From: an uncultured Archangium sp.
Lineage (GTDB): Bacteria; Myxococcota; Myxococcia; Myxococcales; Myxococcaceae
Assembly (NCBI GenBank): GCA_903905455.1
Contig: CAIVGN010000202.1
Span: forward strand, 1 to 43,557
Length of the DNA: 43,557 nt
Direction of reading: 5' to 3'
Under the pieces are notes generated by a model. The model worked only from the letters and a program-made list of their open reading frames with translations, made no database searches and had not been told where the DNA came from. Both the position numbers and the translations under genes were made by a program. Positions 11,575-39,926 of this stretch are shown here, piece after piece; position 1 is the first letter of the stretch, and every line of letters starts with the position of its first letter.

Positions 11575-11605
11575 GCGGGGAAGAATCCCTGTTTGAGGCA
11601 GAGTG

Positions 11606-18472: not shown

Positions 18473-21400
18473 GGCTTCGACCTCAGGGTGCGCAGTTCGT
18501 TGAGCTCGGCCCGCACGCCCTTGCGCGTCTTCACCATCCGGCGCGCCTCGTCGGGGCCGCAGACCGGGCGGAAGTTGCAGTAGCGACACTCGTCGTCATC
18601 GGGCGCCGCGGGGAAGAACCCGGTCTCGAGCGCGCCGCGCAGGGTCCGCACCACCGACGCGAAGGCCTCGCGGCTGGCGGCGTCGAGCCGGGTCTCGACC
18701 GAGAGAAACCCGCCCACCTGGGTGTTGTAGAGCAGCCGCCCCGAGCGCACCTCGGCCTCGGGGAAGAGCTTCTCGAGCACCAGCGCATAGAGCAGCGGCT
18801 GGAGGTGCTTGCCGCCACCGATGACGTTGCCTGGCTCAGCGCGTGAGCGGCCCGTCTTGTAGTCCGTGGCGCGCAAGGCCCCGCTGGCGCTCTTCTCCAC
18901 GAGATCGATGGAGCCGCGGACCTGCAGCCCTTCGATCAGGGTCACCGGCTTCGGCGAGCTGGCGGGGTCCTGCGAATCGACGTCGCGCCCCGGGAGCCCG
19001 AAGGACAACTCGAAGTACGCCGGCTTCCAGTCGGGCTCGTCCGTGGCGAGGCGCAGCGATTGGCGGAGATCGGCCTCGAGGGTCTGCACGCCGTCTTGCC
19101 AGACGCGCTCGATGGCGGGCTTGTAGCGGTCGAACACGTCACGGGCGACCTGTCCGATGGTTTCTCGCAGGCGCCCGAGGATCACCTCGAGGTTCTGGGG
19201 CGTGACCGCGACCCCGTCCTCTCGCAGCGCGCTGAGCAACGAGTACTGGACCTCGTGGGCCATGGAGCCCTTCTCCATGGGTCCCAGCTCTTCGACCTCG
19301 CCGGGGATCTCCAGGGGGTGAAGCCTGACGATGGCCGACAAGAAGAACCGGTAGGGGCACGCCGCGTAGTGCTCGAGCGCCGTGGGAGAGAACGGCCGCT
19401 TCGTGGGGTGGTGCGCCTCGAGGGCCGCGCGGCCGAGCGCACCGGGACGTACCAGGCCGTCCCACGGCGTCCACGTGCTCTGCTGCCAGCGCGCGTAGCG
19501 GGCCCGCAGGGCACGGGCGAGGTGCGGGTTGGTGGTGACGAGGTAGCGGCCCTGGCCCTTGACCGAGTCCTTCGCACGCAAGATGCGATCGAGCACCGAG
19601 AGGTCGAACTCCGTGTCGTCGATGGCGCGGGAAGGCACCTCCGGCGCGGGCCACGCGAGGCGGATGCGGGAGCTCGACTCGGCCTGGCGCTGGAGCGCCT
19701 CGAAGCCCGGCAACGTGCCCTGCACCGCGCGCGCGGCCTCGAGCGCGTAGAAAGACGGAACCCGGGGGCGGGCGTGCTCGGGGTCGACGCGCGGGTACGA
19801 GAGCACCACCTTCCGTCGCCCGGCCCCCACGGCGAGCAACAGCGCGAGGCGTTCGGCGGCGATGCGTTCCTTCGCGGTCTCGAGGAGCGGTGAGACGAGC
19901 GCGCGGGCTGCGTCAGGCAACAGCGGGTCTTCGCGGATCTTCTGCGGAAAGATGCGCTCGGCGAGGCCGGGCACGAAGACCACCTCGAACGAGAGCCCGC
20001 GCAGGTTCTCCACGGGCGCCACGAAGACCTGGCCGTGGCGACGGCCTTCGGGGGCCTCGGTGATCTCCGAGAGGCGCCGGCTCAACACCGCGCGGACCTC
20101 GGGCAGCTCGAGGGGACCGACCGGCCCCAGGGGCGCCAGCTCGGCGAGCACCGAGAGCACCCGCGTGGGGTGCTTGAGCGAGCCCGCCGCCAGCGTGTTC
20201 AGGGCCTCGAGCCAGGTCTCCCACTTCGCCGACCTGGGGAGCGCGGCGAGACCATCGAGCAGCGGCAGCGCGAAGTGTTCGAGGGCCTCGAGATCGGCGA
20301 GCTCGCGATCGACCCGGGCGAGCTGCGCTTCACTCGCGGTGGGGTTGAGGCGTTCCTTCTTCATCTTCTCGCGCAGGCCCGAGAGGCGGCGGCGCCAGCG
20401 GTCGGTGCCTCCGATGACGGCGGCGTCGATGATCAACCGCTCCCAACGACGCGGGGCGCGGAGCTGGCCGAGCACGGCGGGGGCGTCGAGATCGCCGATG
20501 GTCTCGGGCGCTTCGGGGGCGGGCTCCTCCGCCGGCTCCAGCGGCAAGAGCGAGTCACTCGACTCGGGACGCACGTAGCGCTCCTCGCGGACCCCGGCCG
20601 GAGGCACCTGGGAGAGCGAGAGGTACTCGCTGAAGCGACGCGCCGACAGGCCCTCTTCCGCGCACAGCAACAACGCGAGCAGCGCGCGGCCGGAAGGGTC
20701 GGGGCGAGGCAACCCGGCGCTGAACCACGCGGGGATCTTGGCGCGACGAAACGCCTCCTCCAGGGGCGCGCGGTACGAAGCGGGGCTGCGCAGGGCGACG
20801 GCCATCTCGTCGAAGGGCACGCCGGTGGCGGCCAGCTCGAGCACCATGCGGGCGATCTCCACGCACTCGCGGGCCTCACCGGGAGCCGAGAAGATCTCCA
20901 ACCGCCCCCTCGCCCTGCGCGAGCGGGGAGAGGGCTGGGGTGAGGGGCCGACCTCGGCACCATCGCCGGAGTTCTCAACCCGCGTTTCCACGACAGGCTC
21001 AGCCGAAAACAGATTCCGCTGCAAAGCCCCAACAACGGACTCCCCCTCACAAGGCAACTCCACCCCACCCCCATCACCCTCCCCCACGGGCCCCACCACC
21101 AACGAGCTCGGCGCATGCGCGACCAACGCCTCCACGAACGCCCGCTCGAGGCCCGCCTCGGCCTTCACGTCGACCATCACCAACGGAGCCAGCGCCGCCG
21201 CCCCCACGCGCGAGATCGCGAGCGAGTACACCATCGCCCGATCCGCCATCCGCCCCTCGCGCAGCGCGGTCTCGAAGGCCACCATCGCGGCGCCGAGCGC
21301 CGGCTCCACCCGCTCCGCACCAATCCCCAGCATGCGCAGCTCACCCACGGTCCGGGACAGCGCGCGGGACAACCCGGGCCGTCCCGCGAGCGGCGCGAGC

Positions 21401-21708
21401 CGATGCAGCGCCCCGGCCTCGCCCAGTTCGTGCGTGACCCGCGCCCACAGGGCCTCGAGTGACAGTGAGGTGACCACGTTGAGTCCCTGCTCCAGCAGCG
21501 CCGGGCGGGCGAGCTCGATGGCCCAGCGGTACAGCGTGGTGCGCTTCCACCCGAAGATGGCGCGCTTGATCGACCGGGTGAGCTCGGCGGCGGCCTCGAA
21601 GGACGGGCCGATGATCAGCGCATCTCCGGACGGGGGCACCTCGCGAAGAAACGCGCGGGCCCGCTCGAGTCGAAGCTCACTTCGTCGACTCGTGACCTGG
21701 GTCCGCAC
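18469..21708 (-). CDS. addB: AddB-like helicase-nuclease subunit with iron-sulfur nuclease domain
   Basis: The 1079-residue protein starts with GTG. The N-terminal helicase-like region has no usable Walker A (GPSFEAAAEL instead of a GKT motif). The C-terminus has the AddB nuclease pattern: first cluster cysteine in SPTALEHYAACPYRFF, PD-(D/E)XK core GSIDLVEKS then ATDYKTGR, and the last three cysteines in CRYCNFRPVCG, giving the four-Cys iron-sulfur staple. It pairs with the downstream addA-like gene. A REP-like repeat at 20906-20947 is translated in frame, giving PSPQPSPRSRRARG, and the flank at about 20950-21110 is less GC-rich than the rest of the gene. Confidence 0.85.
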   Translation of the reverse strand: MRTQVTSRRSELRLERARAFLREVPPSGDALIIGPSFEAAAELTRSIKRAIFGWKRTTLYRWAIELARPALLEQGLNVVTSLSLEALWARVTHELGEAGALHRLAPLAGRPGLSRALSRTVGELRMLGIGAERVEPALGAAMVAFETALREGRMADRAMVYSLAISRVGAAALAPLVMVDVKAEAGLERAFVEALVAHAPSSLVVGPVGEGDGGGVELPCEGESVVGALQRNLFSAEPVVETRVENSGDGAEVGPSPQPSPRSRRARGRLEIFSAPGEARECVEIARMVLELAATGVPFDEMAVALRSPASYRAPLEEAFRRAKIPAWFSAGLPRPDPSGRALLALLLCAEEGLSARRFSEYLSLSQVPPAGVREERYVRPESSDSLLPLEPAEEPAPEAPETIGDLDAPAVLGQLRAPRRWERLIIDAAVIGGTDRWRRRLSGLREKMKKERLNPTASEAQLARVDRELADLEALEHFALPLLDGLAALPRSAKWETWLEALNTLAAGSLKHPTRVLSVLAELAPLGPVGPLELPEVRAVLSRRLSEITEAPEGRRHGQVFVAPVENLRGLSFEVVFVPGLAERIFPQKIREDPLLPDAARALVSPLLETAKERIAAERLALLLAVGAGRRKVVLSYPRVDPEHARPRVPSFYALEAARAVQGTLPGFEALQRQAESSSRIRLAWPAPEVPSRAIDDTEFDLSVLDRILRAKDSVKGQGRYLVTTNPHLARALRARYARWQQSTWTPWDGLVRPGALGRAALEAHHPTKRPFSPTALEHYAACPYRFFLSAIVRLHPLEIPGEVEELGPMEKGSMAHEVQYSLLSALREDGVAVTPQNLEVILGRLRETIGQVARDVFDRYKPAIERVWQDGVQTLEADLRQSLRLATDEPDWKPAYFELSFGLPGRDVDSQDPASSPKPVTLIEGLQVRGSIDLVEKSASGALRATDYKTGRSRAEPGNVIGGGKHLQPLLYALVLEKLFPEAEVRSGRLLYNTQVGGFLSVETRLDAASREAFASVVRTLRGALETGFFPAAPDDDECRYCNFRPVCGPDEARRMVKTRKGVRAELNELRTLRSKP
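20906..20947. repeat. REP-like GC-rich repeat inserted in frame in addB
   Basis: On the minus strand the segment starts CCCCTCACCCCAGCCCTCTC and continues through CCCCGCTCGCGC. This is the widely scattered proteobacterial repeat whose translation gives PSPQPSPR-type tags. It preserves the addB frame and is flanked by a locally less GC-rich stretch, suggesting insertion between domains. Confidence 0.65.
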
Positions 21709-23012: not shown

Positions 23013-24788
23013 TCAGCGATTGAGCGCCTTCGCCAGCTGACGCGCCCGCGGCCCGACGATCAGGTGGAGCACGTGCGGGCTGACGCGCATCACTCCCAAC
23101 ACCCCGGCGCGCAGCGCGGCGCTCTCGTCGAAGCGGGTGGCGTCGGTGAGCTCCACCCGCAACCGGCTGAGCGCCACGTCTTCCAGCGACTTCACGTTGG
23201 CCTTGCCCCCGAGCGTCAGGAGCAGCTCGGCGGCCGCGAAGCCATCCGAGGGCGCGAGCACCGCCACGGGGGTCAGCACCGGCGTCGCCACCGCCTTCTG
23301 AATGGGCACGGTCGGCAGCGGTTCTACGTCCCCTGACGCGAGGTACTCCTGCATCTCGGTCTTCAAGTTCTCGGAGAGCGGCCCGAACACCGCCTGCACG
23401 CCGTTGCCCACGGTCATCACCCCGGACGCGCCGAGCTGCTTGAGCCTCACGTCGTCGACCAACGCCGGGTCCTTCACGGTGATGCGCAAGCGGGTGACGC
23501 ACGCGTCGAGGCTCTCGAGGTTGGCGCGCCCACCGAACGCGAGCACCATCTGCTGGGCCTTCTGCCTGGCGGAGCTCGGCGGACCGACGACGGTGAGCGT
23601 GCCCTCGGCCTCCGCCCCCTCGCGCCCCATCGTCTTGAGGTTGAACCAGCGGATCGCGTAGCGGAAGGTGACGAAGTACACCAACCCGTAGAGCGGCCCC
23701 AGCACCAGCACCAGCCACCAGCGCTGCGCGTTGGGGTTGAGCACGTTGAAGAGCACGAAGTCGATGGCGCCCTGCGAGAACGTGAAGCCCATGTGCGCGC
23801 CGAAGGTGGCCATGAGGAACTGACCGAGCGCCGCGAGCACCGCGTGCAGCAGGTACAGCGGGGGCGCGACGAAGAGGAAGGCGAACTCGATGGGCTCGGT
23901 GATGCCCGTGAGGAACGAGGTCAACGCCGCGGAGATCATGATGCTGCCGACCTGGGCGCGCCGGTCCGGCTTCGCCTCTCGCCACATCGCCAGGGCCGCC
24001 GCGGGCAGGCCGAACATCTTGAAGAGGAACGCTCCCGAGAGGATGCCAGCGGTGGGATCGCCCGCGAAGAAGCGCTGGATGTCGCCAGTCACCACCTTGC
24101 CGGTGGAGTCGGTGAACGAGCCCACCTCGTAGAAGAACGGCGCGTTCCAGATGTGGTGCAGGCCGAAGGGCACCAGCATGCGCTCCACGAAGCCGTAGAG
24201 CGTGGCCGCCAACCGGGGATCGCTGACCGCCGCCCAGTGAGAGAACACGTTGATGGCACCCTGCACCGGAGGCCACACCACCGACAACACCAGGCCCAGG
24301 CCGATGGCGCCGAGCGCGGTGATGATCGGCACGAAGCGCTTGCCGGCGAAGAACCCCAGCCAGGGCGGGAGCGAGATTTTATAGAAGCGGTTGAACATCA
24401 CCGCGGCGATTCCGCCCGCGAGAATCCCGCCGAAGACCCCGGTCTGCATCGAGGGGATGCCCATCACCATCACCGGCGCCACGCCGAAGACCCTGGCCAT
24501 CACCCCCATGGTCCCCAGCAGCACCACGTAGCTCACCGTGGCCGCGACCGCCGAGACGCCGTCGTTGTTGGTGAAGCCCAGTGCCACCGCGATGGCGAAG
24601 AGCAGCGCCATGTTCCCGAAGATGACGTCGCCCGACTGGCGCATCAGCAACGAGAGGCTCTCCGGCATCCACGAGAACTGCGCGGCACCGATGCCCAGCA
24701 GCAACCCGGCGATGGGTAGCACCGCCACCGGCAACATCAGGGCCTTGCCCATCTTCTGCAGAGACGCGAACGCGTTCAATTTTGCCAC
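23013..24788 (-). CDS. PTS glucose/N-acetylglucosamine-type permease EIIC-EIIB with second Cys-less EIIB
   Basis: The 591-residue protein has an EIIC membrane domain (about 1-380; [29 protein letters not shown], the substrate-site motif GITEPIEF, and [10 protein letters not shown]). It is followed by an EIIB domain whose phospho-acceptor is Cys430 ([10 protein letters not shown]). A second EIIB-like domain (about 515-591) reads [12 protein letters not shown], with Ala539 where the Cys should be. EIIC transports the sugar and EIIB phosphorylates it with phosphate from EIIA. The GTG start has GGAGG 7 bases upstream, and the gap to the fused EI gene is 3 bases, so the two are coupled. Sugar specificity cannot be fixed; the operon context suggests glucose or a glucoside. 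Confidence 0.92.
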
Positions 24789-24791: not shown

Positions 24792-27329
24792 TCACCCTCC
24801 TACGGCGCGCAGCCGGCCCGGTTGCCAGCTCTTGAGCAGCGCGTGCACTTCGGCGGTGGTGGTCAGCTTGAGCACGTCACCGGCCAGCGCCTGGCACTCG
24901 GCGAAGGACCAGCGCGCCAGCACGGCCTTCACCGGCCCGACCGAGGGTGCACTGACCGAGAGATCGTCGATGCCCAGGCCCACCAACAGGGGCGCGGCGA
25001 GGGAGTCCGAGGCGATGCCGCCGCACAGGTGCACGGGCCGCTGGTGAACCCGCGCGCCCTCCACCGTGGCCGCGATGAGCCGGAGCACCGCGGGATGCAG
25101 CGAGTCGGCCCGCTTGGCGAGCTGCGAGTGGCCCCGGTCCATCGCCAGCGTGTACTGGGTGAGATCGTTGGTTCCGATGGAGAAGAAGTCGACCTCGCGG
25201 GCGAAGGCCTCGGCGAGCACCACGGCTGCCGGCACCTCGATCATCACGCCCACCTTCACCGGCGCCTCGATGCCCAGGTTGCGCTGCTCTTCGGCGAGGT
25301 AGGCGCGCGCCTCGCGGAGCTCCTCGAGGGCCGACACCATGGGGAACATGAGGTGCAACTGCGTGAGGTTCGCGGCGCGGAGGATGGCGCGGAGCTGCGC
25401 GCGAAAGAGCTGTGGTCGATCGAGGCTGACACGGATGCCGCGCAGGCCGAGGAACGGGTTCGCCTCGCGAGGCAGCGGCAAGTACGTCAACGGCTTGTCA
25501 CCGCCCACGTCCAGCGTGCGCACCACCAGCGGCCGGTCGGGCCCCACCACCTGGGCGATGGCGCAGTAGGTCTGGGCCTGCTCGTCCTCATCGGGCGCGG
25601 CGTCGCGATCGAAGAAGAGGAACTCCGAGCGCAGCAACCCGATGCCTTCGGCGCCACCGGCCATCGCGTCGCGCGCGTCGGCGAGGTTCTTGATGTTGGC
25701 CACCACCGCGATGCGATGGCCGTCGTTGGTCTGCCCCAGGTGCAGGGCGGCGGCCTGCTCGTGCTTGCGGTCGGCGGCCAGCTTCGACATCTGCTCGCCG
25801 AGGCGCGCGCGGCCGGCCAGGTCGCCCTGGGCCGGAGCGGGCTCGAGGCGGCCCTCGGTGCCGTCCAGCAGCACCTCCGTGCCCTCGGCCAACGTGAGCA
25901 CGTCTTCGTCGGCGCCCATCACCGCCGGCACGCCCATGCCGCGCGCGAGAATGGCCACGTGGCTGGTGGCGCTGCCCGAGGTGGTAACCAGGCCCTTGAA
26001 GTTCGCCGGCGAGAACGAGGCCAGCTGCGTGGGGGTCAGCTCGTCGGTGACGACGATGGCGTTCTCCGGCAAGGCCGCGGTGCGATCCTCCTGCCCCGTC
26101 AGCACCCGCAGCACCCGCAGCCCCACGTCGCGCACGTCGGCGGCGCGTTCCTGGAGCAGCGGCTGGTCGAGCTTCTCGAAGGCCGACGCCTGGGCGCGAC
26201 ACGCGCGGTCCCACGCGAAGGCGGCGCTCTTGCCCGACTTCACGACGTTGGACGTGGCGCCCAGCAACTCCGGGTCTTCGAGCAGCTCGCGCTGCGCGTT
26301 CAAGATGCCCGCACGCGCGCCGGGGCCAGCGGCCTGGGCCATCGCAGCCAACTGCGTCGAGGCGACGGAGAAGGCCGCGTTCAACTTCTTCAGCTCGTCA
26401 CCGGGCGAACCGCCCTCCTCGGCGAACGTGGGCACGGCGTTGCGCAACATCACCACCCGGCCCAGGGCGAGGCCCGGCGAGGCAGACACGCCTTCGAAGA
26501 CGCCGCCCTTCGACACGCGCAGCCGCGGCGCGCGGTCGGGGACCACCACCACGGGCCGCGGCGCCGACACCACTTCCCCGGACCCTTCGCGCAGCGTCTT
26601 GCTCAGGGCGGCGACAGCCTCGGCGGCGTCGGGCCCGATCGCCTCGAGCACCAGCGGGTCGTCGTGCCGCGTGGACAGGCCCATCACGCTGACGACGGAC
26701 TTGAGGTTCGCAAAGGCCGTGCCCCGGAGCAGCCGCACCGACGAGGTGAAGTGCTTGGCCTGCTGCGCCAGCACCGCGGCCGGTCGCGCGTGGAGCCCGC
26801 TCAAGTTGGGCAGCGAGATGGGCTCCGAGCGCACCACCGGGCCCACGGCGGCTTCGGCCGCGACGCTCGCCACGGGGGTCGACGTGAGCGACAGCACCAC
26901 CGTGGTGCCGGCCACCACGCGGCGTTCCCCGGTGGCCACGAGCCGCTGGCCGTCCTGGAGGTTGGTCACCAGCACCACCGTCACCAGGCTGCGCGCCTGG
27001 CGCGCGATGGCGTCGACGTCGAAGCGCAGCAGCGGCTGACCGGCGATGACCAGGTCACCGAGCTTCGCCAACGCGGTGAAGCCCTCGCCCTTGAGCGAGA
27101 CGGTGTCGATGCCCACGTGAATCAGCACCTCCACGCCGTCGGCCGAGGTGATGGCCACCGCGTGGTGCGCCTGGTGGAGCTGCGTGATGGTGCCCGCGAA
27201 GGGCGCCAACACCTCGCTGGAAGTGGGGTCGATGGCCGCGCCGTCGCCGACCATCTTCTGGGCGAACACCGGGTCGGGCACCTCCGCGAGCGGCACCGTG
27301 ATTCCCGAGAGGGGAGCGTGAATCTTCAT
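24792..27329 (-). CDS. Fused PTS phosphotransferase EIIA(Glc)-HPr-Enzyme I
   Basis: The 845-residue multidomain protein contains the whole soluble phosphorelay. EIIA(Glc)-like domain at about 1-150 with His56 and phospho-acceptor His71 (EVLIHVGIDTVSLKGEGF). HPr at about 168-255 with His180 (LSGLHARPA) and a Ser at 211 in the position of regulatory Ser46. Enzyme I at about 278-845 with His457 (SGSATSHVAILARGMG), the PEP-binding barrel (EGIGLLRSEFLF, SIGTNDLTQYTLAMDR) and the catalytic-Cys motif LCGGIASD. PEP phosphate passes EI to HPr to EIIA and then to EIIB of the adjacent permease. Genes on both sides are very close, so this is one operon. Confidence 0.95.
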   Translation of the reverse strand: MKIHAPLSGITVPLAEVPDPVFAQKMVGDGAAIDPTSSEVLAPFAGTITQLHQAHHAVAITSADGVEVLIHVGIDTVSLKGEGFTALAKLGDLVIAGQPLLRFDVDAIARQARSLVTVVLVTNLQDGQRLVATGERRVVAGTTVVLSLTSTPVASVAAEAAVGPVVRSEPISLPNLSGLHARPAAVLAQQAKHFTSSVRLLRGTAFANLKSVVSVMGLSTRHDDPLVLEAIGPDAAEAVAALSKTLREGSGEVVSAPRPVVVVPDRAPRLRVSKGGVFEGVSASPGLALGRVVMLRNAVPTFAEEGGSPGDELKKLNAAFSVASTQLAAMAQAAGPGARAGILNAQRELLEDPELLGATSNVVKSGKSAAFAWDRACRAQASAFEKLDQPLLQERAADVRDVGLRVLRVLTGQEDRTAALPENAIVVTDELTPTQLASFSPANFKGLVTTSGSATSHVAILARGMGVPAVMGADEDVLTLAEGTEVLLDGTEGRLEPAPAQGDLAGRARLGEQMSKLAADRKHEQAAALHLGQTNDGHRIAVVANIKNLADARDAMAGGAEGIGLLRSEFLFFDRDAAPDEDEQAQTYCAIAQVVGPDRPLVVRTLDVGGDKPLTYLPLPREANPFLGLRGIRVSLDRPQLFRAQLRAILRAANLTQLHLMFPMVSALEELREARAYLAEEQRNLGIEAPVKVGVMIEVPAAVVLAEAFAREVDFFSIGTNDLTQYTLAMDRGHSQLAKRADSLHPAVLRLIAATVEGARVHQRPVHLCGGIASDSLAAPLLVGLGIDDLSVSAPSVGPVKAVLARWSFAECQALAGDVLKLTTTAEVHALLKSWQPGRLRAVGG

Positions 27330-27340: not shown

Positions 27341-28561
27341 TCAGTTGAATTCGTACGAGATGCGCAGGCGGAAAGAGTGCACGTAGTTTTCCCAGGTCGA
27401 GCGGGTGTCGAGATCCTCGATGTGGGCCAGCGCGAAGCCGTACACCGCCTTGAGGCTCAGGCCCTGGATGGGGAGCCGGTACATGTACGAGACGAAGGCC
27501 TGGTGGTGGCGGTTGTTCTCGCCCTGTTTGTTGAGCTGGTTGGTGTGGTGGTAGCCGAGGCCCACCGAGCCATTCCAGAAGTCGATGTCGGCGAAGGCAC
27601 CCACCGTGTACTTGTCGAGCGAGCGGTCGGAGTCGACGAGGCCCTGGATGTCGATGGAGTTGACGAAGGCCTGGGCGAAGTTCACGCCGACCGTCGCGTG
27701 CTTGAAGAAGGTGTACTGCAGGCGCGCCGCGTAGCCGTGGGTCGTCGACTGCACCTTGTCGGCCGAGGTCTGCGGGCGCAGCGCGAGCAGCTCGTAGCCG
27801 GCGAGGAACTGCAGGTCCTTCCAGGTGAAGTGCAGCGCGGGGCGCACGCCGTAGTTGTTCTGGGTGTTCTCCTGGCCGTAGACGGCGGCGATCTCGAACT
27901 TGAGGAAGTCGGTGGGGTAGAAGTGGATCGCCCCCTGCCCCGACTCGTTGCGGTAGCCCCGCGTCAGGTCGAGCCAGTACAGCGAGGGACCGCCGAGGGC
28001 GCCGGCCTCTTCCGCCGTCCAGAACTCGATGCCCTGGCCTCGGTGGTAGATCTCCCACGCGAGGAAGCGGCCCACCTGCACGTCGAACCAGCGCTGGTGG
28101 CCCACGCGCACGTACGAGTCGAGGGTGTGCGGCTCGTACTGCGAGCGGGCGAACTCGTTGACCAGGCCCAGGAACTCGACCTTCGCCGAGGCGTAGTAGT
28201 CGCCGAAGGTGCGGCTGAGCGCGGCCCCGAGCACGAAGCGGCCCTGCAGGTAGCTGACGTTCTGATCGTACTGGCCCTGCTGCGCGTTGGTGCGCGCCAT
28301 GTACCCGGTGTCCGCCCAGAAATAGCCCGACAGCGCGATGTTCACCCCCAGCACCTGGGGGATGGGGATCTTCTGCGCGTCGTCGGCCGCGTTGGTGCTC
28401 TTGGTGCTGGTGGCCACCTGGGTCGATGCCGGCGACTCGAAGGCCGGGCCCGCGTCAGGGCTCGCCAGGCCAGCGTCGGGAACAGGGGCACTCGCCTCCT
28501 GCGCGGCCGCCGGAGCCGAGAGCCACACCATCAGGGAGAACAGGGGAAGGAACGCGCGCAT
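27341..28561 (-). CDS. Outer-membrane beta-barrel porin
   Basis: The 406-residue protein has a signal peptide (RAFLPLFSLMVWLSAPAAAQ), a Pro/Ala/Asp/Ser-rich linker to about residue 65, then alternating amphipathic strands rich in Tyr, Trp and Gly typical of a barrel (VNIALSGYFWADTGYMAR, WFDVQVGRFLAWEIYHRG, KAVYGFALAHI, FRLRISYEFN). No known porin family is assigned with certainty. It lies between GH3 lipoprotein genes and the PTS genes, so it likely admits the oligosaccharide or released sugar to the periplasm. The gap to the EIIA-HPr-EI gene is 11 bases. Confidence 0.82.
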   Translation of the reverse strand: MRAFLPLFSLMVWLSAPAAAQEASAPVPDAGLASPDAGPAFESPASTQVATSTKSTNAADDAQKIPIPQVLGVNIALSGYFWADTGYMARTNAQQGQYDQNVSYLQGRFVLGAALSRTFGDYYASAKVEFLGLVNEFARSQYEPHTLDSYVRVGHQRWFDVQVGRFLAWEIYHRGQGIEFWTAEEAGALGGPSLYWLDLTRGYRNESGQGAIHFYPTDFLKFEIAAVYGQENTQNNYGVRPALHFTWKDLQFLAGYELLALRPQTSADKVQSTTHGYAARLQYTFFKHATVGVNFAQAFVNSIDIQGLVDSDRSLDKYTVGAFADIDFWNGSVGLGYHHTNQLNKQGENNRHHQAFVSYMYRLPIQGLSLKAVYGFALAHIEDLDTRSTWENYVHSFRLRISYEFN

Positions 28562-28589: not shown

Positions 28590-30875
28590 CTACTGAATGG
28601 TGAAGGTGCCGGTCTGCATCTGGGGGTCGGCTGAATCCGACGAGGGCCCTACGAACAGCGGGTAGGCCATCTTCTCCACCGTCATCGCCTGGCTCTCGAC
28701 GTTCCAGTAGGCGAGGTCCTGCGCCTTGACGGTGATGGTCGCCGTCGCGGTCGCCCCGGGGGCGAGGTCCGCGAGCCGCGCGAAGCCCTTGAGTTCCTTC
28801 TTGGGGCGGCCCCACTTGTCGGCCACCGCGGTGCCGGTGAAGCCCACGTAGAGCTGCACCACTTCGCTGCCCGCGCGCGGCCCGGTGTTCTGCACGTCGA
28901 CCTTCACCTCGAGGGTGCCGGTGTCGCCGAGCGTGGCGTTGGTCACCCGCAGGTTCGAGTACTTGAAGGTGGTGAAGCTCAGGCCGTACCCGAAGGGGTA
29001 CTGGGGCGCGATGTTCTGCTTCTCGAGCCAGCGGTAGCCGTGGAAGTAGTCGTAGGCCACGTCGCCGGTGGCGGTGTTGTTGAACGCCGGCAGGTCCGCT
29101 TCCCGCATCGGCACGCTCTGCACCATCTTCGCGCTGGGGTTGGTGTCGCCGAAGAGGATCTCCGCCAGGGCCGTGCCTTCCTTCATGCCGGCGAACCACG
29201 CCATCAACACCGCGTCGGCCCCCTGCACCCAGTCGGACACCAGCACCGCGCCGCCGCTCTTCATCACCACCACCACCTTCAGGTTGGGGTTGCCCGCCTT
29301 GAGCGCCACGGCGTTGGCGATGTTGGTGAGATCGCGCTGCGGCAACTGCATGCCGGCCCGGTCCTTCCACTCACCTTCTTCGCCGGAGCTCGAGCGCGCA
29401 AGGTCGGCGTAGAAGTACGCGCCGATCACCACCACCACGTCGGAGGCGCCGATGGCCGCCTCGTTGCCGGCCACGTTCTCGTACGAGCGCACCTGCGCCG
29501 CGGTCCCCGACAACGCCGCCTTCACGCCCTCGAAGGGGGTGACCACCAGCGAGCCGTCGACCGCCTTGGCGTCGGAGCTGCCCTTGTCACCCATGTTCTC
29601 GGAGTTGGCGAACTTGCCCACCACCGACACCTTGCTCACCGTGGCCTTGTCGAGCGGCAGCACGTCGTCGCCCAGGGCGCGGGTCGGACCGTTCTTGAGC
29701 AGCACGATGCCTTCGCGCGCCGCCTGCAGCGACAGGGCCTGGGCCGCGTCGCTCTTGGTGAGGTACGGGCGCCAGCTGAAGTCGTGCTTCACGTCGCCGT
29801 AGTGGATCTTCGAGTAGAGGATGCGCAGCACCGCCTCGTCGATGAGTTCCACCGGCACCGCGCCGGTATTGACCGCGGTCACCAGGGCTGCACCGTAGAA
29901 GTAGGCGCTGTCGAACTGGCTGGGGAACGCGCCCGACGAGAAGGGCATCTCGATGTCGAGGCCGGCCGTGGCCGAGGGCACCGTCTGCCCCTTGGCGAAC
30001 CAGTCGGAGATGACGAAGCCCGAGTACCCCCACTGCTTCTTGAGGATGTTGCGGACCAGGTCGAGGGAGAAGCCGTTGTAGCTGCCGTTGACCCGGTTGT
30101 AGGAGGTCATGATGCAGGCCACGTCGGTCTCCACGGCCTTCTTGAAGTGCGGGAGGTAGACCTCGCGCAGCGTGCGCTCGTCGAGCACCGCGTTGACGTA
30201 GATGCGGGTGTCTTCGATGTTGTTGGCCGCGAAGTGCTTCACGCAGGCCTGCACGCGGTAGGTGTCCTCGGCCGCCTCGTCGGGCTCCGCCGGGTCGACG
30301 ACGTTGGGGTCGAACTCGATGCCCTTGATCAACGAGACCCCCATCTCCCCGAGGAGGAACGAGTCTTCGCCGTAGGATTCCTGGGCGCGGCCCCAGCGCG
30401 GGTGCGTCACCTGGTTGATGGTGGGCGCGAGCAGGACGTGGCGGCCGAGGTAGCGCATCTCCCGCGCCATGGCCTTGCCGATGCGGCGCTCGAGTTCCGG
30501 GTCCCACGAGCAGCCCCGCGAGGCGGCGACGGGGAACACGGTGGTACCGTAGTCGGAGTTGTACCAACGCACCCCGCGCGGCCCGTCCATGTACTTGAAG
30601 CCGGGAATGCTCAACCGGGCGTTGTCTTCCTGGTCGAAGAAGTTGTTCGGGTTGTACGGCGGCCCGCTCATCTGCTGCACCTTCTCCTCGGTGGACATCG
30701 AGCGGAGCAACTGCAGCGCGGAGACCACGTCGGGCTGGGTGCAGTCGAGGTGCGCGCGCGTGGAGAGCGTGTCGCACAGGGTGCCGCCGTCATCGGTGCC
30801 GGCGTCGGTGTTGATGCCGCCGCGCGGGCACCCCGCGAAGACGAGGGCAGCAGCAATCAGGACAAAGCGATTCAT
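28590..30875 (-). CDS. GH3 beta-glucosidase lipoprotein (catalytically intact)
   Basis: The 761-residue protein has a lipoprotein signal (RFVLIAAALVFAGC, Cys16). The GH3 N-domain has Lys213-His214 (CVKHFAANN) and nucleophile Asp291 (VISDWFAKG). Then come the GH3 C-domain (LQAAREGIVLLKNG, SSGEEGEW) and a C-terminal fibronectin-III-like domain (YPFGYGLSFTTFKYS, GSEVVQLYVG). This is the classical three-domain beta-glucosidase layout. It probably releases glucose from a beta-glucan or beta-glucoside at the cell envelope; linkage specificity is not readable. Its start overlaps the stop of the preceding GH3-like gene (ATGA). Confidence 0.93.
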   Translation of the reverse strand: MNRFVLIAAALVFAGCPRGGINTDAGTDDGGTLCDTLSTRAHLDCTQPDVVSALQLLRSMSTEEKVQQMSGPPYNPNNFFDQEDNARLSIPGFKYMDGPRGVRWYNSDYGTTVFPVAASRGCSWDPELERRIGKAMAREMRYLGRHVLLAPTINQVTHPRWGRAQESYGEDSFLLGEMGVSLIKGIEFDPNVVDPAEPDEAAEDTYRVQACVKHFAANNIEDTRIYVNAVLDERTLREVYLPHFKKAVETDVACIMTSYNRVNGSYNGFSLDLVRNILKKQWGYSGFVISDWFAKGQTVPSATAGLDIEMPFSSGAFPSQFDSAYFYGAALVTAVNTGAVPVELIDEAVLRILYSKIHYGDVKHDFSWRPYLTKSDAAQALSLQAAREGIVLLKNGPTRALGDDVLPLDKATVSKVSVVGKFANSENMGDKGSSDAKAVDGSLVVTPFEGVKAALSGTAAQVRSYENVAGNEAAIGASDVVVVIGAYFYADLARSSSGEEGEWKDRAGMQLPQRDLTNIANAVALKAGNPNLKVVVVMKSGGAVLVSDWVQGADAVLMAWFAGMKEGTALAEILFGDTNPSAKMVQSVPMREADLPAFNNTATGDVAYDYFHGYRWLEKQNIAPQYPFGYGLSFTTFKYSNLRVTNATLGDTGTLEVKVDVQNTGPRAGSEVVQLYVGFTGTAVADKWGRPKKELKGFARLADLAPGATATATITVKAQDLAYWNVESQAMTVEKMAYPLFVGPSSDSADPQMQTGTFTIQ

Positions 30876-33205
30876 TCGAACCTCGGGGTCGTGAGGCCGA
30901 AGCCCTTCACGAAGGTGGGGTGGGCGCCGTCGCCGGCAACGTCTTCCTGCTGGGCCGCCGCGGCCGCGTCGGACGCGGGCACGGCGGTGGGCAGCTTGCC
31001 GACGCCAGCGGCGATGCCGAAAGCGACGTCCAGGAAGGTCTTGTCGGCCGAGAGGTTGTTGGCGTTGGTCCCGTTCCACACCACGTAGAGCGCCGCGGGG
31101 TTGAGGGCGACCACCGCGTCGACCACGGGCAACCGGCCCACGTCGACGCCCACCACGATCTGCGTCTGCGAGGCGGGGGTCCCAGTCCAGGCGGCGATGG
31201 CGGCGCGCGCGGTCTGGATGGGCGCCAGGGCATCGGCGTTGGCCGCGCCCACCCACGAGACCAGCGGCGTGGGCAGCCCGAGGCCGGCCGCGTCGACGTC
31301 AGCGGTGAAGGGGGCGGCGATGCGCACCAGCACGTAGTCCGACAGGGCGATCTTCTGCGCGTCGGTGGTGACCGGCACGCCGCCGATGGAGGTGGCGTCG
31401 TTGGTGAGCTCGCCGTAGCCCGCGCTGACCGAGCGCACGTAGTCGAGGTCGAAGTCACCCATGATGAAGAAGCGGCAGCCGGCCGAGACGTAGGGCTCGC
31501 CCGGGGGCGCGGGGAGCACCTTGCGGGTGCCGTTACCGGCGTTGCCCTTGTCGCTGGACTGCGTGCCGTCGCCGGTGCCGTTGAGCCACCCGGCCGGCTT
31601 GTCCTTGTTGATCAGCAACACCATGCCGCGGTTCATCGCGTCGAGGCCGGCGCGGTACGAGAGGTCGACGTTGGTCAACCGCGGCGCCGCGGCCGCGTCG
31701 ACGTAGGGGTCCTCGAAGAGCCCCAGGGTGAACATCAGCGCCAGCGCGCGGCCCGCCGAGGCGTCCACCTGGGCGTCGCTGATCGAGCCCGCCGTCTTCG
31801 CGGCCTGCAGGGCGACGATGTCCCCCAGCCCGCCGAACTGGTCCACGCCGGCGTTGACCGCCTTGGCGATGCGCGCGGCCCTGGCCAGGCCTTCCACGCC
31901 CCAGGGCGCGCCCAGCGGAGAGAGCGCCGCGTCGTTGACCGCCCCGGGAGGCGCGATCACCAGGCCCTTGAAGGCCATGCGGGTGCGCAGCACGTCGGTC
32001 ACCAGCTTCGCGTTGAACGAGGCGCCCACCTGCTCGAGCGTCGCCCCGGTGAGCGTGCCGCCCTGGCCCGACCACGCGCCCGCTTCAGGAATGGCGTAGC
32101 CCGTCATCACGCCCGCCACGCCCTGGGTGATGGCCTGCTGGAAGGGCGCGAGGTGCGCGTCGATGGTGTTGCCCGGGTAGGCGGTGAACTTGCCCTTCGC
32201 CAGGCGCGCGTCGAAACCACCCTTGGCCGCGCCCGCACCGGGGAACGCGCCGACCACCGCCGCCACCGAGGTGGGGCCCAGCGTCGTGCCCTGCAGGCCC
32301 TTGATGTACGAGGCCACGAAGGCCCCCACCTGGGTGCTGTCTTCGCCGAAGGTGAACTGCGCGCGGTACCAGCGCGGGTCCGTGGCGAGGTCCGCCGAGG
32401 GCGAGAGCGCCAGGCGGATGCCGATGGCCCGGTACTCGGTGGCCACGATGGCCGCGAACTTCTCCGCGAGGGTCACGTCGCCCGACGCGGCGATGGCCGA
32501 CTCCGAGGGCCACTGCGAGAACCCGGTCGCCTTCACCCGGCCGTTGCCCGACGAGTGCACCGGGGTGGTCGAGAGCACGAAGGGAATGCCCAGCGCCGCT
32601 TCTTCGGCCTTCTCCTGCAGCGCGTTCGCCCAGGTCGCCCGGGTGAGCACCGCGGTGGTGTTGGCGCTCGTCGAGGCGAAGCGCAGGTTCCCGGTGATCA
32701 ACGCCAGGCTGGCCGCCGAGGGCACGGCCGTGGTGTCCGCGGTCGCGCCGTGGGCCATCAGCCCCAGCTTCTGATCGAGGTTCATCTTCGCCAGCAGGTC
32801 GGTCGCGCGCGCCGCCGGCGTCAGCCGCCAGTCTTCGTAGGGGTCGAGCGTGGCGTTGCCGTTGCTGTCCTTGAACTGCAGCGTCACCTCGCACTGCACC
32901 GAGGGGTCGCCCCCTTCGCTGGCGAAGGTGACGGTCTTGCTCATCAACGTCTTCTTCTTCGTCTCCATCGACGGCTGGGCCGCGAGCAACTGCTGGCGCC
33001 GGGTCTCGTTGGCCGCAAGGCCACACTCACCCGTCACCCCGCCGCCGCCACCCGCGCCGCCGCCTCCACCACTGCCACCGCCAGCGCCGCCATCATCGGC
33101 GACGCCGCCGGTGCCACCACCCACCCCGCCGTCCACACCTGGAGAACCACCGCACGCCGAAGCCAACAGCGCCATCGCCAACAACCGCGTCATTCGCTTC
33201 GTCAT
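30872..33205 (-). CDS. GH3-like lipoprotein lacking catalytic residues (probable pseudoenzyme)
   Basis: The 777-residue protein has a lipoprotein signal ending SAC (Cys18), then a Gly-rich linker (about 19-58) and a calcium-loop-like DSNGNATLDPYEDW. The fold resembles the upstream GH3 protein throughout, including the C-terminal EDV-D-PT motif. However, the catalytic nucleophile region reads LVIAPPGAV, with Pro419 where SDWG has Asp. The substrate-binding Lys-His pair before FPGAG is Gly319-Ala320 (VVGAFPGAG). It is probably a paralogue that has lost hydrolysis and may bind sugar. It sits between two GH3 genes with canonical residues and has no frameshift or internal stop. Confidence 0.88.
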   Translation of the reverse strand: MTKRMTRLLAMALLASACGGSPGVDGGVGGGTGGVADDGGAGGGSGGGGGAGGGGGVTGECGLAANETRRQQLLAAQPSMETKKKTLMSKTVTFASEGGDPSVQCEVTLQFKDSNGNATLDPYEDWRLTPAARATDLLAKMNLDQKLGLMAHGATADTTAVPSAASLALITGNLRFASTSANTTAVLTRATWANALQEKAEEAALGIPFVLSTTPVHSSGNGRVKATGFSQWPSESAIAASGDVTLAEKFAAIVATEYRAIGIRLALSPSADLATDPRWYRAQFTFGEDSTQVGAFVASYIKGLQGTTLGPTSVAAVVGAFPGAGAAKGGFDARLAKGKFTAYPGNTIDAHLAPFQQAITQGVAGVMTGYAIPEAGAWSGQGGTLTGATLEQVGASFNAKLVTDVLRTRMAFKGLVIAPPGAVNDAALSPLGAPWGVEGLARAARIAKAVNAGVDQFGGLGDIVALQAAKTAGSISDAQVDASAGRALALMFTLGLFEDPYVDAAAAPRLTNVDLSYRAGLDAMNRGMVLLINKDKPAGWLNGTGDGTQSSDKGNAGNGTRKVLPAPPGEPYVSAGCRFFIMGDFDLDYVRSVSAGYGELTNDATSIGGVPVTTDAQKIALSDYVLVRIAAPFTADVDAAGLGLPTPLVSWVGAANADALAPIQTARAAIAAWTGTPASQTQIVVGVDVGRLPVVDAVVALNPAALYVVWNGTNANNLSADKTFLDVAFGIAAGVGKLPTAVPASDAAAAAQQEDVAGDGAHPTFVKGFGLTTPRFE

Positions 33206-33244: not shown

Positions 33245-35884
33245 TCAGTACGTCGAACCAGCGCCCAGCACGTAGGTCGGGTTCGCCGTGTCTGCCGGGA
33301 CGTCTTCGAACTGCGCATCGACTTCGGCGTCCGAGCTGGGCGTCTCGATGGGCATACGGGCGGTGCCGTACACGTAGTTGGCCGGCGTGGTGGGCACGTG
33401 CTTGTTGAAGAGCACGTCGAGCACCGCGCGGTCGTAGGCCCCGAACTCGGCCATCACCACGTCGACGCCGCCCAGGCCGTCAGCGCGGATGTTGGCGTTG
33501 TTGGACACCAGCGGGTAGCTGCCCGCCGTGCCCAGGGTCTCGTTGAGCGACACCAGGCCGTTGACGAAGGGCTTCACGATGCCCGGCCGGTCGTAGTGCA
33601 CCACGAGGACGATCTTCAGGTTGGGGTTGGCCGCGGGGATCACCGCGCCCGTGCTGTCGGTGTAGCCGTCGCGCACGCGCAGCAGGTCGATGACCTTGTG
33701 GGCTTCCTTCACCGCGGCCGCCTGGTTCGAGTCCGTGAGGGCGCCGGCAAACGGCGCGTCCCACGAGAGCGGCACGCCACGGTCGAGACCACCGTAGGTG
33801 CCCTTGCGGGCGCTGATGCGTACCACCGCGATGTCCGCCGCCGCCGGGGAGGCCGCTTCGGCGATGGGCAGCACCGTGCCCCCATCGGCCGTCACGCCCG
33901 CCGCCGCCTTGTAGTCGTAGGTCTGCAGCGCGTCGTCGTAGATGTCGCTGCCCGCCAGCGAGTCGGTCACCCCGTCGTAGAAGACCTCGACCGTGCCGTC
34001 GTGGTCCGCGTCACACAGCGTGCCGCCGTCGGTCGCCTTGCGCGTGCCGTCGATGGGAAGGTACTTCGCGCCCGAGTTGGCCAGCGTGCCGTGGTCGCGG
34101 TTCTTGAGGAGGACGATCGCCTTCTTCTGCGCCGTCAGCCCGTCGGTGCGGTTGGCCACGGAGCGGATCTCGGCCGCCGAGGCATCAGGGTCGATGTAGG
34201 GGTTCTCGAAGAGGCCGAGCTTGAACGTCATCTCGAGGATCTTCTCGGCCGCGACGTTGATCTGCGCCTCGGTGATCAGGCCCTGGTCGAAGGCCGCCTG
34301 CATGATGGTCACCGAGTCGTTGCCCAGCTGGTGCGAGCCCGCCTGGAGGAACAGCGCTGCGCGCTGCGGCTGGGTGAGCGCTTCGACGCCCCAGGCGGTG
34401 TTGCTCATGGTGCCCCAGTCGCTGGTCACCATGCCCGAGAAGCCCAGCGCTTCCTTCATGTACCTGGTGATGAGGCCGTAGCTGAACGCCGAGCCCGTCT
34501 GCTCCGGGCTGTAGTCGAGCTGCTCGCGGAAGATCGAGTAGCAGGGCATCACCGCCGCCGGCTTGGCCGTGAAAGCCGCGCGGAACGAGAGCTGGTGGTA
34601 CTCGAAGTAGTGGCCCGGGTAGATGCTGTAGCGCCCCGGCCGCGAGTGGCTGTCCATGCCGCCCTGGTTCGCGCCGGCGCCAGGGAAGTGCTTCACGGTG
34701 GCCGCGATGCCGTTCTTCAGGTCGCCGTTCGACTGGAAGGCGTCGATGCAGGCGCGCGAGTGGTTGCCCACGGCCGGCCCATTCTCACCGAAGGTGTTCT
34801 GCACGCGCGCCCAGCGGGGCTCGGTGCCGACGTCCGCCATCGGGCCCAGCTGCCAGCGGAAGCCCATGGCCTTGAACTCGCGGCGCACCATGTCGCCGTA
34901 GAGCGTGGTCAGGGTCAGGTCGTTGGCCGCGCCCAGGCCCATCGGGTACGGCCAGGGCGAGACCACGGGGCTCGCGCTCAAGGTCTGCACGCCGGTGGTG
35001 GCATTGGTCGACAAGCCAAAGCCATGCACCGGGTCGGCGGTCACCACGAAGGGGATGCCGTGGGGCTCGGACTCGGCCAGCTTCTGCACGTTGTTGATGT
35101 ACACGGCCAGCTCGCGGCCACTGCGCGCGCCGAGGCGTACGAGGCCCTGGCGAAGGTGCAGGCCCTGGATGTTGGTCTTCGCGCTGTCGGGCAACACGCC
35201 GTCGGCCGTGCCACCGCCGATGCTCGCCGATTCGCCCATCAGGCCAATCTTCTCGGGCACGCTCATGCGGCCGACGAGGTCCCACGCGCGGCAGGCCTCG
35301 ACCAGGCGCCAGTCCTCGTAGGGGTCGAGGGTGCCGTTGCCGTTGTTGTCCTTGAACTCCTTGCCGTCGACGGTGAGCTTGGCGCGGGTGTCCACGCCGA
35401 TGACCGGCTGCGCCGTGTAGAGCTTCGTGAGGCAGGCGTCCTGCGGCACCGAGCCACAGATGCCGGCCTGGCAGACCTGGCCCTGGGTGCAGGTGCCGGT
35501 GAGGTTGGCGCTGCTGCACAGGCTCGCCATCGCGACGCACGCGCCGCCGAGGCACGACTTGCCCATGTCGCAGGGGCCGGTGAGGCTCGTGGGGCTACAC
35601 AACTTCGCGCTCACCACGCAGCCACCGGCAAAGCAGGTGGTGCCCGTGGCACAGGTACCGACCTCATTGGTGGGGCTGCACAGCGTGGAGGTCACGACGC
35701 AGGCGCCATCGACGCAACTGTTGCCGGCCTCACACTTTCCGTTCGGCGCGCCCGGAGCACAGTCTTGAATGACGGTGACGGTGACGGTGTTGGTGTTGGT
35801 GTTGGTGATGGGGTCTGGTGAACAGCCGACGATCACCAGTGCGGCAACAGCGAGGGTACGCAACGGCGAGAAGGTCTGATGCAT
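33245..35884 (-). CDS. GH3 exo-glucosidase lipoprotein with N-terminal Cys repeats
   Basis: The 879-residue protein starts with a lipoprotein signal (RTLAVAALVIVGC, Cys21), a Thr-Asn/Thr-Val dipeptide spacer (27-38), and four 27-residue Cys-rich repeats (42-144, C-x8-C-x5-C-x4-C). A Ca-binding-like loop follows (DNNGNGTLDPYED, from Asp179), then GH3 N- and C-domains. Lys398-His399 (VKHFPGAGANQGG) and nucleophile Asp489 (VTSDWGTM) are intact. It resembles exo-1,4/1,3-beta-glucosidase-type GH3 enzymes without a fibronectin-III domain. It is the first gene of the operon; a GGGAG ribosome site lies 5 bases before the ATG, about 20 bases after the predicted sigma-54 start point. Confidence 0.92.
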   Translation of the reverse strand: MHQTFSPLRTLAVAALVIVGCSPDPITNTNTNTVTVTVIQDCAPGAPNGKCEAGNSCVDGACVVTSTLCSPTNEVGTCATGTTCFAGGCVVSAKLCSPTSLTGPCDMGKSCLGGACVAMASLCSSANLTGTCTQGQVCQAGICGSVPQDACLTKLYTAQPVIGVDTRAKLTVDGKEFKDNNGNGTLDPYEDWRLVEACRAWDLVGRMSVPEKIGLMGESASIGGGTADGVLPDSAKTNIQGLHLRQGLVRLGARSGRELAVYINNVQKLAESEPHGIPFVVTADPVHGFGLSTNATTGVQTLSASPVVSPWPYPMGLGAANDLTLTTLYGDMVRREFKAMGFRWQLGPMADVGTEPRWARVQNTFGENGPAVGNHSRACIDAFQSNGDLKNGIAATVKHFPGAGANQGGMDSHSRPGRYSIYPGHYFEYHQLSFRAAFTAKPAAVMPCYSIFREQLDYSPEQTGSAFSYGLITRYMKEALGFSGMVTSDWGTMSNTAWGVEALTQPQRAALFLQAGSHQLGNDSVTIMQAAFDQGLITEAQINVAAEKILEMTFKLGLFENPYIDPDASAAEIRSVANRTDGLTAQKKAIVLLKNRDHGTLANSGAKYLPIDGTRKATDGGTLCDADHDGTVEVFYDGVTDSLAGSDIYDDALQTYDYKAAAGVTADGGTVLPIAEAASPAAADIAVVRISARKGTYGGLDRGVPLSWDAPFAGALTDSNQAAAVKEAHKVIDLLRVRDGYTDSTGAVIPAANPNLKIVLVVHYDRPGIVKPFVNGLVSLNETLGTAGSYPLVSNNANIRADGLGGVDVVMAEFGAYDRAVLDVLFNKHVPTTPANYVYGTARMPIETPSSDAEVDAQFEDVPADTANPTYVLGAGSTY
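35453..35761 (-). repeat. Four 81-bp tandem coding repeats (27-residue Cys-rich units)
   Basis: Units start at residues 42, 69, 96 and 123 of the GH3 lipoprotein; the last is truncated. Each keeps four cysteines spaced 8, 5 and 4 residues apart, with GxxC and GGxC turns. They probably form small disulfide modules between the lipid anchor and the enzyme, a stalk or a binding module. Confidence 0.75.
35771..35806. repeat. Hexanucleotide tandem repeats in GH3 spacer
   Basis: On the plus strand there are three copies of GACGGT followed by three of GTTGGT, encoding the Thr-Val and Thr-Asn dipeptide spacer. Being multiples of 6 bp, slippage here would change spacer length without shifting frame. 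Confidence 0.7.
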
Positions 35885-35914
35885 AGGGTCTCCCGGTAAG
35901 TTGGGAACGCCCTG

Positions 35915-35930
35915 AGCAACGACCGCGCCA
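35915..35930 (-). promoter_or_regulatory. Sigma-54 (-24/-12) promoter of the GH3-porin-PTS operon
   Basis: The minus strand reads TGGCGCG-GTCG-TTGCT, against the sigma-54 consensus TGGCACG-N4-TTGCW. The invariant GG and GC dinucleotides are 10 bases apart, with one mismatch in the conserved blocks. The -12 GC at 35917-35916 predicts a start near 35904, 20 bases before the first GH3 start codon. The adjacent regulator gene encodes an intact GAFTGA activator. Confidence 0.75.
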
Positions 35931-36107
35931 CCAATCTGGCACACGCGCCGGTCGGCCCCCGCAATCCGCACCCTTGGCTTGATCCGCGCTCGTCGGCGCT
36001 TACCCAGCAACGCTCAGTGACCCAGTCGCCTTCGGCAGCGTCCCGCCTCCCGAACTGGAAAAACGACCGATTCGAAGGGCGAGCTGACGGGTCGAACGCG
36101 CGGCGGC

Positions 36108-36144
36108 GAAGGGTGCACGATCAACGAACACAAGTGCACGCTTC
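36108..36144. promoter_or_regulatory. Candidate enhancer (UAS): long dyad with two GTGCAC cores
   Basis: GAAGGGTGCAC at 36108-36118 and GTGCACGCTTC at 36134-36144 form an 11-bp inverted repeat with one mismatch and a 15-bp spacer. Each arm holds a palindromic GTGCAC; the two cores are 21 bp apart, two helical turns. It lies about 180-215 bp upstream of the sigma-54 promoter, in the usual range for NtrC-type enhancer sites. There is no T-run, so it is not a standard terminator. Confidence 0.55.
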
Positions 36145-36163
36145 CCGTACAGCTTCGCGCGGC

Positions 36164-37466
<1,303 letters not shown>

Positions 37467-37489
<23 letters not shown>

Positions 37490-39746
37490 GGGCGGCCTCG
37501 GAAGCGCGGGTGGGAAGACCGACGATGAAGACGGTGCGGTCGGCGTCGCGTCGGTATGACAGCCGCCCTCCCTGTACCACGAGCAACGCGTGGGAGAGGA
37601 AGAGGCCCAGCCCGGTGCCATGGGCCTTCAAGGTGAAGAAGGGCTCGAAGATCTCGTGCTCGTGGGCCGCGGGGACGCCGGGGCCCGCGTCCGCCACCAG
37701 CACCCTCACCTCCTCGGCGTCAGCGTCGATGACCAACTGCACCGCCCCGCCCTCGGGGCTCGCGTCGATGGCGTTGGTGACCAGATTGTCGATGACCCGG
37801 GTGACGGCGTCGGGGTTGAGCGACACGGTGGCCGCGCCCTCGCGGTGCAGGGTGACGTTCTTCAGCCGGGCCTGGGCTCGGAGCCGCTCGAGGCGGTCGT
37901 CGACCAGGGTCTCGAGGGCCAGGGCCTGGCGCGCGGTGCCGTCGCTGCGGGCGACCACCATCAACTGGCTCACGAGGTGATCGAGGCGGCTCAGCTCGTC
38001 GAGACAGACCGCCACGTCGGCGCTGGAGGTCTCGTCGAGGCGGCGCCGGGCCAGCCCGTCGAGGGTCAGCTTGATGCCGGTGATGGGGGTGCGCAGGTCG
38101 TGGGCCACGCCGGACACCACGCCGCCGAGGCCCGCCAGCCGCTTGCCGTGCTCGAGGTCGCGCTCGAGCACCCGCTCGCGAAAGCGCGACTGGGCGAGGT
38201 CTTCGGTGAGCGTGGCGTGGCTGGTGGCGATGCGCGCCAGGGTGGCCGCCGCGGTGAGGTGCGTGCCCGAGTTCAAGGCGGGGGGTCCGAAGATGCTCGA
38301 ACGCAGGTACTGCTCGAGGTCGGTGCGGATCGCCTCGGACACCGGCCCGAAAATCGCCTGGATGCCGGTGCCCACCATCACCACCGCGGTGGCGCCCAGG
38401 GCCTTGAGCCGCTCGGGGTCGACCTGGTCGGGGTCCTTCACCGAGATGCGCAGGCGGGTGACGCAGGCGTCGAGGCCGGTGATGTTCTCCTGGCCACCGA
38501 AGGCGGCCACCAGCGCCTCGGAGCGGCTCTCGTCGCTCTCTTCGTCGGTGGAGATGGTGATGAGCGCCACGGGGGCGCCTTCGCGGCCGGGGGTGCGCAG
38601 GTCGAAGCGGCGGATCGCGAACGAAAACACGCCGTAATAGACGAGCCAGTAGAGCGGGCCGAGCACCAGCACCCACCACGCGCCGCGGCTGGTGGGGCTC
38701 CAGAAGTTGAAGGCCACGAGGTCGATCGCGCCCTGCGAGAAGGTGAAGCCCAGGTGCATGCCCAGGGTGTTGGCGAGGAACTGGCTGCTGGCCGCGAGCA
38801 ACGCGTGCACCAGGTAGAGCGGAGGCGCCGCGAAGAGGAAGGCGAACTCGATGGGCTCGGTGATGCCGGTGAGGAACGAGGTGAGCGCGGCCGAGAGCAT
38901 CACCCCGCCGACCTTGATGCGGTTCTCCGGCTTGGCCGCGCGCCACATGGCGATGGCCGCTCCGGGCAGGCCGAACATCTTGAAGAGGAAGGCGCCGCCC
39001 AGGGTGCCCGCGGAGGTGTCCCCGGCGAAGAAGCGGTTGATGTCGCCGTGCACCACCTTGCCCCCGGCGTCGGTGAAGGACCCGAACTCGAAGAAGAAGG
39101 GCACGTTCCAGATGTGGTGGAGCCCGAAGGGAATGAGCAGGCGCTCCACGAAGCCGTAGACCGTGGCCGCGGTGCGCGGGTTGCTCACGGCGGCCCAGTG
39201 CGAGAGCACCTGGATGCCCGCCTGCAACCCGGGCCAGAGGAACGAGAGGAAGAACCCCATCACCATGGCCGCCAGCGCGCTGAGGATGGGCACGAGGCGC
39301 TTGCCCGCGAAGAAGCCGAGCGCCGTGGGCAGGGTCACCCGGTGGTAGCGGTTGAAGAGGAAGGCGCTGGTGGCGCCCGCGAGGATGCCGCCGAAGACGC
39401 CGGTGTCGAGCGTGGCGATGCCCAGCACCGGCTGCGTGGCGACGCCCAGCACCTCGGCCATGCCGCTGAGCGTGGCGAGCATCACCGTGTAGGCGATGAC
39501 CGCGCTGATGGCGTTGGTGGCGTCGCGCTCGGCGAAGGCCAGGGCCACGGCGATGGCGAAGACCAACGGCAGGATGCTGAAGATGACGCCGCCCGAGAGC
39601 CGCATCACCGTGCTCACCATGACGGGGAGGAAGCTGAAGTGCGCCTGGCCGATGCCCAGCAGGAGCCCCGCGACCGGGAGCACCGCGACCGGCACCATCA
39701 GCGCGCTGCCGGTGGTCTGCAGGAACGCGAAGAGCCGCTTGAGCAT
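37467..39746 (-). CDS. PTS permease-histidine kinase fusion (EIIC-EIIB-HisKA-HATPase)
   Basis: The 759-residue protein fuses a full glucose-family PTS permease to a histidine kinase in one uninterrupted frame. EIIC at about 1-390 ([47 protein letters not shown]). EIIB at about 405-490 with its phospho-Cys kept (Cys428, [10 protein letters not shown]). A predicted coiled-coil linker (about 515-540), then HisKA with His549 (GVAHDLRTP) and HATPase (NLVTNAIDAS, ADAGPGVP, FEPFFTLK, GTGLGLFLS). EIIC and EIIB resemble the permease at 23013-24788, suggesting duplication followed by fusion. It has no periplasmic sensor domain, so the permease is probably the sensor. The ATG lacks a clear ribosome site; the frame stays open upstream. 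Confidence 0.93.
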
Positions 39747-39926
39747 GGGGGGATAGTCGCCGTGTGGCCGTGCTGAAGCCACCTTCGTCAGCGGGCACAG
39801 GGCGGGAACCACCCGGAGTCCTGGCAGCCGCGCTCCGCAGGTGGTCCCGCTCACGTTTACCGCTCCACTTCAGCCCAGCTGCCCACGCCGAGGCCCCCCG
39901 CCGCGGGCGACGGCGCCCGTGGCCCG

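Follow-up and report, generated by a model that had tools for sequence, protein, structure and literature searches.

A glucose-type PTS permease fused to a histidine kinase and a conserved predicted sigma-54 promoter at a sugar-harvesting operon of Myxococcota

CbrB of Pseudomonas is an NtrC-type regulator that works with sigma-54, activators of the LevR/ManR type that serve PTS operons of Bacillota carry PTS-phosphorylated domains themselves, and the PTS permease BglF phosphorylates the antiterminator BglG directly. Transporter-kinases are rare, and the examples in the literature that we searched use SLC5 or Amt transporters: CbrA both transports and signals (PMC7096432), and in KsAmt5 an ammonium transporter is joined to a histidine kinase (PMC8534201). 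Sigma-54 regulons are enriched in PTS genes, and sigma-54-controlled PTS operons occur mainly in Bacillota and also in beta- and gammaproteobacteria (PMC12316311). The transporter-kinase principle is thus known, and no description of its PTS permease form, an EIIC/PTS-kinase fusion, was found in a limited literature search, which is weak evidence of absence.

The window analysed here, the whole stretch of 43,557 nucleotides (43.6 kb) from an uncultured Archangium sp., contains a locus for which CbrA/CbrB is the closest described system in working principle, since that SLC5-STAC pair of Pseudomonas likewise controls the use of carbon sources through a transporter-histidine kinase, an NtrC-type regulator and sigma-54. 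The features of the locus are as follows.

37467..39746, minus strand: PTS glucose EIICB permease fused to a HisKA-HATPase histidine kinase (ORF open from 39854)
36164..37621, minus strand: NtrC-type response regulator with receiver, AAA+ domain with GAFTGA, and Fis-type HTH
36125..36140, minus strand: candidate regulator-binding palindrome CGTGCACTTGTGTTCG (CGnnCACnnGTGnnCG), a conserved gap block about 200 bp upstream of the promoter
35915..35930, minus strand: predicted sigma-54 -24/-12 promoter TGGCGCGGTCGTTGCT, from motif match and conservation in five loci
33245..35884, minus strand: first operon gene, a GH3 protein with a lipobox-like signal and a Cys-rich N-terminal part
30872..33205, minus strand: second GH3 gene
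28590..31256, minus strand: third GH3 gene, with C-terminal and Fn3-like domains
27341..28561, minus strand: porin-like outer-membrane protein, called by position and sequence character and conserved in orthologous operons
24792..27329, minus strand: EIIA-HPr-EI multiphosphoryl transfer protein, three active-site His motifs present
23013..24788, minus strand: EIICB glucose-type PTS permease (transport copy)

The sensor differs from CbrA in being a PTS EIICB: Pfam searches of it found no SLC5 symporter or STAC domain and EIIC and EIIB instead, and because this permease is unrelated to SLC5, the protein falls outside the SLC5/STAC group (CbrA/CrbS type). Unlike CbrA, it has a phosphorylation site of its own, so that PTS phosphorylation could be a second input. 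Control of the LevR/ManR type likewise concerns a sigma-54-dependent PTS operon with an activator tied to the PTS, whereas here the PTS permease is part of a membrane kinase and a response regulator serves as activator. The trigger permease of BglF/BglG also serves as a sugar sensor for gene control, whereas the likely output here is the covalently attached histidine kinase. An EIIC input domain is shared with a signalling enzyme of c-di-GMP output, in place of which stand a kinase and sigma-54, and E. coli PtsG (IICB-Glc) has identical glucose-contacting residues but no kinase. KsAmt5 shares the fusion of a transporter-derived sensor to a kinase, but it belongs to the Amt family and handles ammonium, whereas the present system is a sugar PTS (PMC8534201).

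The fusion was absent from the sequence-only reading of this DNA and is more surprising than the promoter on which that reading had centred. The kinase frame (37467-39854) contains PTS_EIIC, PTS_EIIB, HisKA and HATPase_c (Pfam), and its start codon is likely the ATG at 39746, which gives a protein of 759 aa. Counted from this likely methionine, residues 1-484 align with E. coli PtsG from one end to the other, and in PtsG glucose is contacted by E202, R203, H211, H212, N215, K257, T297, E298, F337 and S338 (PMC11393339). All ten residues and the phospho-cysteine are identical in the five sensors of this type that were found, and the kinase H, N and G boxes are present in each, so that the sensor has the domains, ligand residues and phospho-cysteine of an EIICB permease together with the boxes of a histidine kinase. 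Its scores in the NCBIfam glucose equivalogs lie just below the cut-offs (610.6 versus 647, and 580.1 versus 591.8), and the operon's EIICB passes both. A GlcNAc reading, prompted by a GlcNAc-type EIICB beside an EIIA-HPr-EI gene in other Myxococcaceae (L022), was set aside since both the sensor and the operon permease group with glucose-type permeases. No solved structure spanning both the permease and the kinase half was found; the AlphaFold model has the expected order of elements, with a long helix before the DHp, and is given little weight, with a mean pLDDT of 68 and low confidence in the EIIB-kinase linker.

The fusion was found in 5 of the 195 Myxococcota genomes searched, always at this operon: in the window, in one genome of the same genus (G003), in one of the same family (G144), and in two of another family of the same order (G055 and G065). 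EIIC, EIIB, HisKA and HATPase lie in one frame in all five separate genomes, on which ground an assembly artefact was rejected. Among the best 80 matches in a collection of 84,980 species, where rarer or more distant fusions may be missed, two were full-length fusions (L025 and L026, which probably represent the G065 and G055 contigs), and the frames listed as L027-L072 were plain permeases, mostly adjoining an EIIA-HPr-EI gene; no plasmid record reaches 80% coverage of the fusion. In the tree, the sensor EIICBs form one clade (support 100/99) apart from the operon permeases, which likewise form one clade, and this topology suggests that the fusion probably arose once.

The kinase and regulator genes lie directly upstream of the operon on the same strand and overlap, the regulator beginning within the end of the kinase gene, probably at a start codon further downstream than the listed ATG. 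The receiver, the AAA+ domain and the Fis-type HTH expected of an NtrC-type regulator are all present, and GAFTGA or GSFTGA was found in the regulators of all five loci. Reading along the minus strand, the operon consists of three GH3 genes, the gene for the porin-like protein (for which Pfam gave no match), EIIA-HPr-EI and EIICB, with small gaps. The listed third GH3 frame overlaps the second GH3 gene, so its true start lies downstream of the listed one. The order kinase, regulator, gap, three GH3 genes, porin, EIIA/HPr/EI and EIICB is kept wherever contigs reach. The operon EIICB (23013-24788, minus strand) has an extra C-terminal EIIB-like stretch without the cysteine, in the position that the kinase occupies in the sensor copy. 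Elsewhere in the window, a second and conventional two-component pair (11603-14448, plus strand) of a HAMP kinase and an NtrC-type sigma-54 activator is preceded by an outer-membrane efflux gene (9825-11561), and adjoining genes for a UvrD-type helicase and a PD-(D/E)XK nuclease (15062-21708, minus strand) resemble a repair pair of the AddAB/AdnAB type.

The sequence-only reading had proposed a near-consensus sigma-54 promoter directly before the GH3 operon, next to a GAFTGA regulator, and this was borne out: both operon and regulator are present, and TGGCGCG-N4-TTGCT at 35930-35915 (minus strand) has one mismatch to TGGCACG-N4-TTGCW, keeps the GG-N10-GC spacing with its -24 GG and -12 GC, and lies 30 bp upstream of the first GH3 ATG (35884). 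No other site in the 43.6-kb window comes within one mismatch of the consensus, and chance alone would give about 0.5 such sites; for the 279-bp gap, given its composition and counting the correct strand only, P is about 0.002. The extrapolated transcription start (about 35904) would leave a leader of about 20 nt, short as is normal, with GGGAG 5 nt upstream of the ATG. A search of 35700-36300 turned up no sigma-70-like site, and the gap between regulator and operon contains no clear terminator, with one weak stem where about 0.5 would be expected by chance. The window's genome (8.6 Mb, 251 contigs) has a single rpoN, and an enhancer-binding activator is encoded near the site.

In the four loci orthologous to that of the window, a sigma-54 site with one or two mismatches lies in the same gap. 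The five sites and their P values per gap, which are not fully independent since the loci are related, are TGGCGCGGTCGTTGCT (0.002), TGGCCCGTCCGTTGCT (0.0005), TGGCTCGCTCGTTGCT (0.004), CGGCACGGCGCTTGCT (0.002) and GGGCACAGCGCTTGCT (0.04); in the two more distant loci the distance between the promoter and the end of the tested gap is 117-149 bp, and one of these two promoters has two mismatches. The gap is poorly conserved, with just 34% identical columns among the three closest loci, and in these its two best conserved 20-mers are the promoter and the palindrome CGnnCACnnGTGnnCG. The window and G003 match this form exactly, G144 departs from it at one position, and G055 and G065 carry a version shorter by two bases (CGnnCACGTGnnC); sites of this form number 21 in the window's whole genome. 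Picked out post hoc, and with a spacing that differs by 2 bp between families, the palindrome is a candidate regulator-binding site. Two operons of the same type (G003 C25 and G081) have neither a kinase-regulator pair within the stretch read nor a good sigma-54 site, and sigma-54 control is therefore not universal for such operons. The former (L019 and L020) is a second, paralogous GH3-GH3-GH3-EIIA/HPr/EI-EIICB operon, with only a three-mismatch GG-N10-GC site ahead of its first gene. G144 also has a one-mismatch sigma-54-like site, CGGCACGTGCGTTGCT (L111, 5880-5895, minus strand), directly before a divergent gene of 296 aa with the kinase downstream; this gene has no homologue in the window, and the site, being outside the conserved operon, was left out of the promoter evidence.

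Comparative evidence of this kind, from the five orthologous loci, rpoN and the co-conserved NtrC-type regulator, supports the promoter proposed earlier, and the site is well supported as a genuine conserved promoter of a sugar-digesting and uptake operon. The suggested tie between regulator and operon also gains support, as the pair is co-conserved with the operon and the conserved upstream palindrome strengthens the link. RNA polymerase with sigma-54 could instead have nothing to do with the operon, the site being a chance match and the genes being transcribed by read-through that begins at the kinase and regulator genes, or from a promoter that another sigma factor serves; the chance expectation for the window and the lack of a clear terminator would allow this, but we consider it quite improbable, given that the site recurs in all five orthologous gaps (P at most 0.004 in four), that site and palindrome stand out from an otherwise divergent gap, and that the search found no sigma-70-like site. 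Still less probable is a sigma-54-dependent promoter activated by another enhancer-binding protein, for example by the NtrC-type pair at 11603-14448: such activators are many in Myxococcota (PMC12316311) and a second pair does lie within the window, but it is the adjacent pair that accompanies the operon in all five genomes.

A third explanation accepts promoter and regulator and sees in the fused EIICB chiefly a glucose transporter, or else a vestigial anchor in the membrane, with the kinase answering some other signal. Transporter-kinases such as CbrA transport as well as signal, so that transport could be the main role (PMC7096432), and the operon already has a second EIICB; nevertheless, the glucose-contacting residues, phospho-cysteine and kinase motifs are all kept in the five sensors and the fusion is found solely at this sugar operon, which makes this explanation unlikely. 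We find it reasonably likely that the fused protein is a 'transceptor' kinase, in which a PTS permease registers glucose or PTS flux and the signal reaches the operon by way of the NtrC-type regulator and sigma-54.

According to this transceptor model, sigma-54 RNA polymerase would transcribe the operon from the site at 35930-35915, and the sensor of the kinase would be its EIICB, a PTS permease of the glucose type. Kinase activity would change as this permease binds and transports glucose, or with how far its EIIB cysteine is phosphorylated by way of the EIIA-HPr-EI protein that the operon encodes. The kinase would phosphorylate the adjacent regulator, which would bind the palindrome about 200 bp upstream and open the promoter through its GAFTGA loop, and the operon would then supply a complete glucose PTS along with a porin-like protein and three GH3 glycosidases that are exported and set sugar free. 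The sequences themselves show the site and its conservation, the domains, the intact catalytic and ligand residues and the order of the genes; promoter activity, the sensed sugar, the direction of the response and binding of the palindrome are what we infer here, as is a fusion that senses rather than transports alone. We lean, if slightly, towards EIIB phosphorylation state and EIIC glucose occupancy jointly setting the kinase output to the regulator and promoter, and by the same narrow preference the sugar PTS phosphorelay and a two-component system would be united in one polypeptide.

Probably, then, the cell reads glucose through a transporter to decide on more sugar-harvesting machinery. 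If true, the two main phosphotransfer systems of bacteria, sugar phosphotransfer of the His-Cys type and His-Asp signalling, would meet in one protein, the PTS permease-kinase, and whether sugar occupancy or PTS phosphorylation state drives the kinase would become directly testable. The locus would also offer a natural sigma-54 switch, possibly one that responds to glucose, at a sugar-harvesting operon of Myxococcota.
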